From Chthonomonadaceae bacterium (GTDB lineage Bacteria; Armatimonadota; Fimbriimonadia; Fimbriimonadales; Fimbriimonadaceae): 64,000 nucleotides of DNA. This document shows, piece by piece, positions 3,111 through 5,806 of this stretch (the first letter of the stretch is position 1; each line of letters starts with the position of its first letter). The stretch is taken from assembly GCA_015709495.1 (NCBI GenBank), contig CP054189.1, positions 1,240,001 through 1,304,000 of the forward strand, written 5' to 3'. The translations under genes and the position numbers were made by a program. The notes under the pieces are model-generated. The model made no database searches. It was not told where the DNA came from and saw nothing but the letters and a program-made list of their open reading frames with translations.

Positions 3111-3157
3111 TTCCCCCTCGCCCCTCTGGGGGAGAGGGGGCCAGGGGGTGAGGGGCA
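3111..3157 (+). repeat. 47-bp repeat, left copy flanking the DUF559 gene
   Basis: A 47-base G/C-tract repeat runs from ttccccctcg to gtgaggggca and can itself fold into a hairpin (cccct...aggggg). The right copy at 3613-3659 is its reverse complement with one difference (t versus c at the hairpin loop). The left copy ends 6 bases before the stop codon of the DUF559 gene. Confidence 0.9.
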
Positions 3158-3163
3158 CGGTTC

Positions 3164-3553
3164 TCAGGTCATGACGTCTGGGAAGGCCTTCCGGCCCGAA
3201 CGCTGCTCGCACAGGCTCACGACGGTGGCAACATCGTCTTGGTAGGGCGTCGGGTCGAGGAGAAGAAACCGCCGGTTCGGAATGCGATGAATCAGAATCC
3301 CCAGGTTCGATAGCTCTTTGTCCCTCGTTGCATCGCGGTTGGCATCATGTTGCTCGCCGTCCATTTCGACACCGAGCATCGCTTCGCGGCAAAAGAAGTC
3401 GATTCGAAACCCCCCGACGGGGTGCTCTCGTCGAAACTTGAATCCTGTTCGGGAGGCGCGAAGAAACTCCCACATGATGTCTTCGGCTACGGACGGACCT
3501 TTGCGGGACGCCCTGGCGAGGTCGCGCGACGTGGGATGCCGGTCGCGTGGCAT
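3164..3553 (-). CDS. DUF559 (VSR-like endonuclease fold) protein
   Basis: This 129-residue protein matches the DUF559 family, small proteins related to the very-short-patch-repair and restriction-endonuclease fold. Visible family features are SVAEDIMWEFLRAS, FKFRREHPVGGFRIDFFC (the DFxC strand carries the metal-binding Asp), LGVEMDGEQH (second acidic residue), and IHRIPNRRFL. The ATG at 3553 is chosen because upstream residues in the open frame are translated from the flanking repeat. The gene is bracketed by inverted 47-bp repeats at 3111-3157 and 3613-3659. Cellular function and DNA target are unknown; nuclease activity is inferred from the fold. Confidence 0.85.
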   Translation of the reverse strand: MPRDRHPTSRDLARASRKGPSVAEDIMWEFLRASRTGFKFRREHPVGGFRIDFFCREAMLGVEMDGEQHDANRDATRDKELSNLGILIHRIPNRRFLLLDPTPYQDDVATVVSLCEQRSGRKAFPDVMT

Positions 3554-3612
3554 GGTCTGGATTGTACAGGCTTGATTGGCCTGGCGGGAAGCCCGGTGGG
3601 CCGGAAAGTCCT

Positions 3613-3659
3613 TGCCCCTCACCCCCTGGCCCCCTCTCCCCCGGAGGGGCGAGGGGGAA
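3613..3659 (-). repeat. 47-bp repeat, right copy flanking the DUF559 gene
   Basis: This copy is the inverted partner of 3111-3157, 46 of 47 bases identical. It begins 60 bases upstream of the DUF559 start codon and ends 8 bases before the left end of the IS3-family element. Confidence 0.9.
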
Positions 3660-3667
3660 TGTTGCCC

Positions 3668-3690
3668 TGCGGCGAAATTTGTGGACACCT
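3668..3690 (+). repeat. IS left terminal inverted repeat
   Basis: These 23 bases, tgcggcgaaatt followed by tgtggacacct, pair with the right end at 4864-4886; the only differences are two adjacent bases. Confidence 0.9.
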
Positions 3691-3715
3691 ACTTGTTCTG
3701 TCAGGAGAAAATAGG

Positions 3716-4027
3716 ATGGTGTCTCGCCGTAGTTTCAGTCGTGAGTTCAAGTTAGGCATATGCCAGGAGATCGTTTCTGGCTTGCGGTCAAAGGCTCAGG
3801 TGTGCCGGGAGCATGGTTTGTCTCCGGGGATGCTGGATCGTTGGGTGGACCAGTTCAAGGTCTTGGGTTCGGATGCGTTTCCGAATTCCGGGCGTTCGGG
3901 TTCGGGGATGGTGCTGGACCGTACGAAGGAGCTGGAAGCGCTCGTGGGTCGTCAGGCTTTAGAGATCGAGTTTTTGAAGGCCGCACTAAAAAAAGGGGAG
4001 GAACTCCGGGAGAAAAGGCAGCCATGA
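3716..4027 (+). CDS. IS3-family transposase OrfA
   Basis: OrfA is 103 residues with an N-terminal helix-turn-helix (REFKLGICQEIVSG, then AQVCREHGLSPGMLDRWV) and a C-terminal leucine-zipper-like helix (TKELEALVGRQALEIEFLK). It binds the element ends. The ATG at 3716 has AGGAG about 10 bases upstream. Its stop overlaps the possible independent start of orfB (ATGA at 4024). A run of seven A residues before GGGGAGG near its 3' end allows -1 frameshifting to make the OrfAB fusion. Confidence 0.92.
   Translation: MVSRRSFSREFKLGICQEIVSGLRSKAQVCREHGLSPGMLDRWVDQFKVLGSDAFPNSGRSGSGMVLDRTKELEALVGRQALEIEFLKAALKKGEELREKRQP
3988..3998 (+). promoter_or_regulatory. Candidate -1 frameshift site in the IS
   Basis: In the orfA frame the codons read CTA AAA AAA GGG. 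A slip back by one base on the seven A residues moves ribosomes into the orfB frame, which is open from 3760 onward. The following ggggagg could act as an internal Shine-Dalgarno stimulator, as known for other IS3 elements. The slip itself is inferred. Confidence 0.6.
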
Positions 4028-4863
4028 TTCGCGCTCTTCGCCCGGAGTTTCCGTCCCTTTCGGTTCACCGCATGTCCCAATTGGTGGGCATATCTCGCTC
4101 TCTGGTGTACGCTCCGCAGAGGCAGAAATCGCGTCCCGAGTTGCTGTTGGCGATCGAGAGGCTGGTGGTCTTGTTCCTGGGTTACGGCTACCGCCGGGTT
4201 CGGCGCGCGCTTCAGCTCGAGGGCGTTGCGGTCAGCGAGTATGCAGTTCGCAAGCTCATGCGCGAGCACGGGCTGATGGCGCGAAGGCCGCGCAGCCGCG
4301 GGGTGACCCGGCCGGGCGCTCGGGATCGCCGGGCAGGCAACCTGCTCAAGGGCCTCAGCGCCTCGGCCCCCAACCAGATCTGGGTCGCCGACACCACGCG
4401 GGTGCGCACCGACTCGGGGCCGCTCTACCTGGCCGCCCTCATGGACCTGTATTCGCGCAAAGCGGTGGCCTGGCACCTCTCGCGCCGAAACGACGAAGCC
4501 CTGGTGCGCGATTGCCTCTTGAAGGCTCTGCAAACCCGCAAACCGAACCTCGGCTGGATTCACCACTCCGACCAAGGCTCGACCTACACCGCTTCCGGAT
4601 ACATGAGGCTCATCCGCGACGCAGGCGGCAAAACCAGCTTCTCCGCTCCCGGAAAACCGCGCGACAATGCCCACATGGAAAGCTTCTTTCGGACCGTGAA
4701 GCTCGAAGAAGTCGACCGCAACCGCTATGGGTCCTTCCTCGAAGCCCAAGCATCGCTGGAGCATTTCATCGATGCAATCTACAACCAACAGCGCATGCAC
4801 TCAAGCCTTGAGTACATGAGCCCCGACCAATTCGAATCTCGCCCAACAAAGGAGGCGCGATGA
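4024..4863 (+). CDS. IS3-family transposase OrfB (DDE integrase core)
   Basis: The catalytic part is 279 residues if started at the ATG that overlaps the orfA stop. It has an HTH_21 segment (LGYGYRRVRRALQLEGV) and a retroviral-integrase-like core. The acidic triad is visible as the D of VADTTRV, the D of HHSDQGSTY and the E of DNAHMESFFRTVKLEEV, the last with the usual Lys seven residues later. The C-terminal YNQQRMHSSLEYMSPDQF is typical of IS3 transposases. It is probably made mostly as an OrfAB fusion by frameshifting at 3988-3995. Confidence 0.93.
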   Translation: MIRALRPEFPSLSVHRMSQLVGISRSLVYAPQRQKSRPELLLAIERLVVLFLGYGYRRVRRALQLEGVAVSEYAVRKLMREHGLMARRPRSRGVTRPGARDRRAGNLLKGLSASAPNQIWVADTTRVRTDSGPLYLAALMDLYSRKAVAWHLSRRNDEALVRDCLLKALQTRKPNLGWIHHSDQGSTYTASGYMRLIRDAGGKTSFSAPGKPRDNAHMESFFRTVKLEEVDRNRYGSFLEAQASLEHFIDAIYNQQRMHSSLEYMSPDQFESRPTKEAR

Positions 4864-5038
4864 AGGTGTCCAACAATTTCGCCGCATTTCATGTCCTTGA
4901 TTCTTCCCGGTCTGCTCTTCGAGTCAGACCGGGGCGCCGGGAGTGAAATGCAGCGAGGCGAAGGGGAGTTGGGGAGTTCTGACTGAGGCTGGGTTACTGG
5001 CAGCCGCCGGGTTGGTTTGTGCGGTAATGTGAGGCCGA

Positions 5039-5806
5039 ATGGCCGAGTCTGACCAGCCCCAGGCGAAGACGTGGCGTGAGTTCTTCGACGAACACGCGCC
5101 GCGTTACATGGAAAACCCGTTTACGAAGGACACGCTCGCCGAGGTCCAGTTTCTGATCGACAAGCTAGCGCTTCAGCCTCCCGCGCGTGTGCTCGACATC
5201 GGATGTGGTACGGGGCGGCACGCCATCGAACTCGCGCTGCGGGGATTCGAGGTCGTCGGACTGGACCTTTCTGAGGGCATGATCGCCGAGGCGCGGAAGG
5301 CGGCTGGGCGGCGCGGCGCCAGCGTCGAGTGGATCGTCGGCGACGCAAGGGAGTTCGATGGAGCGGGCCGGTTTGACGCTGTCCTCTGCCTTTGTGAGGG
5401 CGGCTTAGGCCTGGCGAACCTCGACGACGACCCGATACTGCATGACCTGAAGATTCTTCAATCCGCCTTTTCGAGCCTGCGCCCAGGCGGAGGATTCCTG
5501 GCGACCGCGCTGAACGGCTACGCATTGATTCGCCGAATGACCGATGAAGACGTCGAACGGAACACGTTCGATCCAACGACGATGCTTGCGAGGTACGTCG
5601 ATGAGTGGGAGTTGCCCGAAGGACGGGTCGCGATGATGATCCGCGAGCGGCTGCTGATACCTCCCGAGATGGTGGCGATGCTGCGCCATGTCGGATTCGA
5701 GGTTCTTCACGTATGGGGAGGAACTGCCGGAGACTGGGGCGAGCGGCCTGTGAAGCTCGACGAGGTTGAGGCGATGTACGTCTGCAAGCGGCCGGAGCTA
5801 CCTTAG
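5039..5806 (+). CDS. Class I SAM-dependent methyltransferase
   Basis: This 255-residue enzyme has the S-adenosylmethionine-binding motif I VLDIGCGTGRH (about residues 51-61), the acidic end of strand two VVGLDLSEGMIAEA, and motif IV-like FDAVLCLCEGGLG, as in the Methyltransf_25 group. The substrate cannot be read from the sequence. The ATG at 5039 has GAGG six bases upstream. The gene is convergent with uvrA and its last 9 bases overlap the uvrA stop, so this gene occupies the place where the second half of a normal uvrA would lie. It may have arrived with the event that shortened uvrA; that link is inference. Confidence 0.85.
   Translation: MAESDQPQAKTWREFFDEHAPRYMENPFTKDTLAEVQFLIDKLALQPPARVLDIGCGTGRHAIELALRGFEVVGLDLSEGMIAEARKAAGRRGASVEWIVGDAREFDGAGRFDAVLCLCEGGLGLANLDDDPILHDLKILQSAFSSLRPGGGFLATALNGYALIRRMTDEDVERNTFDPTTMLARYVDEWELPEGRVAMMIRERLLIPPEMVAMLRHVGFEVLHVWGGTAGDWGERPVKLDEVEAMYVCKRPELP

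Follow-up and report, generated by a model that had tools for sequence, protein, structure and literature searches.

A DUF559 nuclease gene bracketed by BoxC-class repeats as a candidate RAYT-like partner of those repeats

BoxC/triplex repeats, first found in E. coli in the 1990s, are scattered through many genomes. The closest described partnerships between a gene and palindromic repeats are the REP/RAYT (TnpA-REP) systems, with REPINs and REPtrons. In these systems a single gene sits between palindromic repeats in inverted or direct orientation, the repeats are dispersed in many copies and also form paired inverted derivatives, and different paralogues have different cognate repeats. DUF559 genes between triplex-type repeats, as at the locus described here, share these features, yet the enzyme is an EDxHD/Vsr-type nuclease rather than an HUH tyrosine transposase, and the repeats combine a C-arm, a G-arm and a mirror G-tail without GTAG. 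BoxC/PIT sequences are intrastrand triplex motifs, termed TM-ECO in E. coli (Holder et al. 2015, PMC4666352), and triplex folding of the E. coli motif has been demonstrated in vitro (PMC4666352). The 2015 survey counted 3610 motifs in 262 proteobacterial genomes and reported neither activities for genetic mobility beside the motif nor any functional class of neighbours (PMC4666352). For E. coli K-12, 23 BoxC copies have been published.

The window, meaning the whole 64,000-nucleotide stretch of DNA that was analysed, contains the unit at 3111–3659, with the following features:

3111–3160, plus strand: left repeat copy, BoxC/triplex-type (Y-arm 3113–3124, loop 3125–3127, R-arm 3128–3140, spacer CCA 3141–3143, mirror G-tail 3144–3155)
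3164–3553, minus strand: DUF559 gene (PF04480, YcjD/COG2852-like), 129 aa, EDxHD-type nuclease
3610–3659, minus strand: right repeat copy, in the opposite orientation to the left copy

The two arms (3111–3160 and 3610–3659, 50 nt each) are 96% complementary, and 46 of 47 bases agree over 3111–3157 and 3613–3659, with T3127 as the sole mismatch. Two matches occur in the real sequence, compared with none in 100 dinucleotide shuffles. A sequence-only reading had already described this 47-bp pair around a 129-residue DUF559 gene, and its coordinates and counts proved correct, as did its spacing: one copy lies within a few bases of the stop, the other some 60 bases before ATG 3553. The reading frame runs on the minus strand from that ATG to the stop at 3164–3166, and its product matches the PF04480/DUF559 profile with an E value of 9e-19. 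Starting upstream instead, at GTG 3622 or 3688, would place SPSPLRGRGGQGVRG, a translation of the right repeat, close to the N terminus; ATG 3553 is the preferred start, as it leaves the repeat outside the protein. Repeat-derived extensions of this kind also occur in other DUF559 frames among the loci examined. Each arm can form a hairpin, as had been proposed, with a modest folding z-score of -1.3 to -1.5, since base composition by itself supplies much of the energy.

A Pfam scan of the unit returned only DUF559 and the related REase_MTES_1575, with no known transposase and no Y1_Tnp HUH tyrosine transposase, in agreement with the earlier statement that the unit holds no transposase. Neither window repeat copy has GTAG at the foot of the palindrome, and a PADLOC search gave no defence-system match. 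The window's genome, a single contig of 2.9 Mb, carries one DUF559 gene and at least 28 copies of the window repeat, which occur singly or in arrays with about 100-bp spacing. Directly adjoining the right repeat, an element with an rve integrase-core (IS3-like) transposase occupies 3663–4890, with inverted ends at 3668–3690 and 4864–4886; a methyltransferase-like open reading frame lies nearby at 5039–5806. The end sequence of the IS3-like element also adjoins six other repeat copies (L004, L007, L017, L021, L022 and L028), so this IS seems to favour the repeats.

In the left window copy, read along the plus strand, a C-rich arm is followed by a short loop, then by a G-rich arm, the bases CCA and another G-rich block; both copies contain the C-arm, G-arm and mirror G-tail in one strand. 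Judged by sequence, the window repeat is placed in the BoxC/PIT intrastrand-triplex class as a different variant. The window copies do not fit the strict published pattern, CCCTCNCCCN3-6GGGNGAGGGN3GGGNGAGGG, and their longer G runs make the second loop exceed 3 nt under it. Across the families of repeats that accompany DUF559 genes, the second G block is a mirror of the G arm in which A may face A or T; 51% of motifs agree with this rule at 90% or better, compared with 19% when the tails are permuted. With asymmetric arms, the tail is a mirror in 68 cases and a direct copy in 4, with 18 ties, and the direct-copy model of the G-tail was rejected for the mirror. This mirror rule is the geometry predicted for a purine-motif triplex. 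The shared ground with BoxC/TM-ECO is thus the three-block architecture; in addition, the exact E. coli motif adjoins ycjD, and Enterobacter-type genomes hold hundreds of copies. The differences are that a partner gene is now named, that the motif is widened to many sequence variants and phyla, and that the window copy has longer G runs with the loop CCA.

The encoded protein belongs among EDxHD nucleases by residues and by fold. D51, E62, H68 and D73 are invariant in the alignment, and D64 is nearly so (numbering of the 128-aa translation 3164–3550). Among solved structures, the AlphaFold2 model of the window protein (pLDDT 85) most resembles the Neisseria endonuclease-like protein 3HRL and, next to it, the EDxHD homing endonuclease I-Bth0305I (3R3P, Foldseek E 2e-4), and a sequence profile search returns the same two in the same order. 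The window nuclease shares the catalytic core fold and the E, D, H and D residues with I-Bth0305I, yet it is a single-domain, stand-alone gene bounded by repeats and lacks the extra DNA-binding regions of that enzyme. That the closest characterised relative by profile and fold is a homing endonuclease favours one rival explanation, in which the repeats spread by other means and a selfish DUF559 gene cuts palindromic repeats and inserts into them. Such a gene would come to sit between repeats without disseminating them.

A second rival takes DUF559 to be a Vsr-like mismatch repair enzyme, with the adjacent repeats as incidental terminators or protective structures. Caulobacter VsrA, also a DUF559 protein and of a related PD-(D/E)XK-like fold, lends it support through SOS induction in cells without a cytosine methyltransferase and a proposed role in VSP/mismatch repair (PMC12907096). 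Against it, the window protein matches the E. coli Vsr fold much more poorly (E 0.27) than that of the homing endonuclease, and the pairing with repeats lies outside the Vsr model. Both this rival and a third, in which G/C-rich hairpins merely gather round small dispensable genes in high-GC genomes, can be weighed against how widely and how specifically the repeats accompany DUF559.

A scan of species genomes gave 80 DUF559 loci; because a single peptide pattern was used, the sample represents the YcjD-like branch of the family. These loci include Enterobacter, Buttiauxella, Xanthomonas, Pseudomonas, Neisseria, Desulfobacterota, Cyanobacteria/Melainabacteria, Nitrospira, Verrucomicrobia and Spirochaetota. 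A C-arm/G-arm hairpin lies within 250 bp of DUF559 on at least one side at 77 of 79 loci and on both sides at 55 of 79, compared with 18 and 3 of 275 control small open reading frames elsewhere on the same contigs (Fisher, about 1e-57 and 1e-41, respectively). With only two of the 79 YcjD-like loci lacking a repeat, the suspected tie of DUF559 genes to the repeat is borne out. Left and right repeats resemble each other, inverted or direct, at 51 of 78 DUF559 loci versus 9 of 251 controls. The window's phylum has DUF559 in 138 of 251 genomes. Twenty-nine DUF559 loci there come with sufficient flanking sequence: a hairpin stands on both sides of 18 and on one or both sides of 25, whereas the figures for 27 ParE toxin loci of the same phylum are 0 and 2.

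These data demonstrate that the pairing of YcjD-like DUF559 with triplex-type repeats is general across phyla. The motif is absent at five examined loci (L202–L206) of weak DUF559 matches in Enterobacteriaceae, matches that lie mostly inside large proteins. At another locus, L056, the DUF559 domain forms part of an open frame of 1335 aa, and the portion translated is similar to a large methylase-type protein. A literature search found no publication that connects DUF559, COG2852 or YcjD to these repeats; most subscription journals were outside its reach.

A pure terminator or composition effect is ruled out by the same-contig and ParE controls. The modest folding z-score of each arm does fit a coincidence of composition, but the near-zero control counts, the mirror rule of G-arm and tail kept in divergent families, and the behaviour of a reversed, backward-read control pattern, which has 0 matches in all 217 Enterobacteriaceae genomes surveyed, make that explanation scarcely credible. 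The small same-contig genes and ParE genes without repeats count equally against a Vsr-like repair enzyme beside incidental structures, and terminators would not be cognate to each paralogue, as described below; this reading is improbable, if somewhat less so than coincidence.

Copy number fits a partnership in which DUF559 disseminates its repeats. Among 217 Enterobacteriaceae species genomes, 25 contain a YcjD-type DUF559 (E below 1e-25), and 21 of these carry the exact published BoxC pattern in 4–230 copies, while only 5 of the 192 species without the gene hold at least four exact copies (p about 1e-20 with species counted as independent and kinship ignored). The four DUF559-positive genomes without exact BoxC have a repeat of another type, though of a similar general kind, next to the gene. 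Some genomes without the gene retain 6–21 BoxC copies, which are read here as relics. Repeat-rich genomes in this survey nearly all carry DUF559, so the repeat is not widespread without the gene, in keeping with the pairing that the sequence-only reading proposed. That repeat copy number follows gene presence speaks against a selfish gene that only inserts into repeats spread by other means.

Within E. coli, K-12 ycjD (b1289) has a BoxC copy between ycjD and fabI, and the gene occurs in 3365 of 5426 genomes of the species. Most ycjD-negative strains have fewer BoxC-like places, a coarse hint. Five BoxC sites were compared with MG1655 (flgF/flgG, ytfQ/ytfR, yraQ/dolP, lptG/yjgR and yhjE/yhjG; L158–L162 against L061–L074). 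At each, the intergenic stretch is replaced whole, with no clean insertion or empty site, and because the whole stretch differs these sites say nothing about insertion. At BoxC sites of other E. coli strains, MG1655 has different sequence, often classical REP-like. In E. coli ETEC6 (H71), ycjD is apparently broken by an IS1-like element.

Genomes with several DUF559 genes reveal the specificity of the association. Most examined paralogues have their own repeat pair, and some have none, for example L272 in G077. The tested repeats of four multi-DUF559 genomes are multi-copy in their own genome, and among the matches listed none crosses to another. Repeat and protein similarity are correlated (Mantel r 0.27, above all 2000 permutations); repeat and protein co-diversify, and vertical descent could contribute. 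An own dispersed repeat at most examined paralogues is a further point against a gene that merely rides on repeats.

One genome, G062, bears on movement. Its DUF559 unit (L264:1323-2025) is 703 bp long with 52-bp inverted ends, and the same genome holds dozens of MITE-like elements of about 150 bp (151 bp) whose 52-bp inverted ends are identical or nearly so to those of the unit. Between these ends lies a conserved interior of 47 bp; its outer bases are similar to the sub-terminal bases of the unit, and the elements therefore look like deletion derivatives of the gene unit. Their flanks are often palindromes, with no clear target-site duplication seen, and some elements occupy the exact centre of another palindrome (mirrored flank bases 23/24 at L390, 24/24 at L391 and 23/24 at L399). 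As with IS elements and their MITEs, the DUF559 unit is bounded by terminal inverted repeats and, in G062 only, has internally deleted derivatives that share those ends; unlike them, it has no known transposase. Elements seated at palindrome centres fit a homing-like gene that inserts into repeats; MITE-like elements that share the sub-terminal bases of the unit and look like its deletion derivatives speak against it. Taken with the copy-number and paralogue data, this leaves the homing-like explanation unlikely, although it is the strongest of the three rivals.

From the sequence comparisons, movement is supported by the MITE-like derivatives of G062 and not by the window copy. G085, the only other genome of the window's species examined, has the whole unit at the same site with 97% identity, so the window copy looks resident. 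The genome-wide comparison with G085 covered 2.4 of 2.8 Mb. The IS3-like element of 3663–4890 is absent from the corresponding G085 site. The window's genome has a 219-bp segment with another repeat copy (L027) that G085 lacks, a difference that may be an insertion or a deletion. G202, a genome of the same genus without DUF559, has synteny to the window limited to the upstream genes. None of the comparisons gave a clean empty site for a complete DUF559 unit; those for the window's unit were with G085 and G202. The proposed likeness to REP/RAYT pairs, with a Vsr-like protein in place of the RAYT, thus stands on the wider scale for the pairing itself, and the empty site expected for 3111–3659 did not appear. 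In G133, a decayed DUF559 frame (876–1118, three stops) lies at C12:744-1191 between copies of the repeat that brackets the intact unit at C23, and it is possibly a second copy of the whole G133 unit.

The block at 3111–3659 is probably a nuclease-plus-repeat unit in which DUF559 is a RAYT-like partner disseminating cognate BoxC-class repeats. This reading draws on what was observed: how broadly and specifically gene and repeat are paired, the link between copy number and gene presence in one family, the private repeats of most examined paralogues and the MITE-like derivatives in one genome. From these we infer enzymatic mobilisation of the repeats by DUF559. The nuclease would recognise the hairpin or triplex form of its repeat and would cut at or near the centre of such palindromes, after which repair or insertion would place a copy of the repeat, and only rarely of the gene, at a new site. 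Alternatively, something else may cause gene and repeat to travel together. The unit in the window's species now looks resident in these comparisons, as RAYT genes are.

Novelty is judged here by enzyme class, as transposable elements are classified; the pairing alone is of the REP-RAYT kind. The broader claim is finely balanced, with about an even chance. It holds that a class of mobile DNA has a stand-alone EDxHD/Vsr-type nuclease, DUF559, as its sole enzyme, which cuts hairpin/triplex-forming palindromes at the centre and copies the repeat and MITE-like derivatives. Such a class would explain the BoxC/triplex repeats of bacteria at large, E. coli K-12 with its ycjD among them.

DUF559 is a widespread family to which, to our knowledge, no general role has been assigned. 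The present association suggests that DUF559 is the long-missing enzyme that spreads or maintains BoxC/triplex repeats, and it hands both the family and the repeat a testable function. E. coli K-12 has both partners, ycjD and BoxC copies. Should mobilisation prove true, transposable elements would gain a class whose enzyme comes from a nuclease superfamily that is not known to act in this way. It would then also become testable whether a dedicated bacterial enzyme recognises triplex DNA by its structure.
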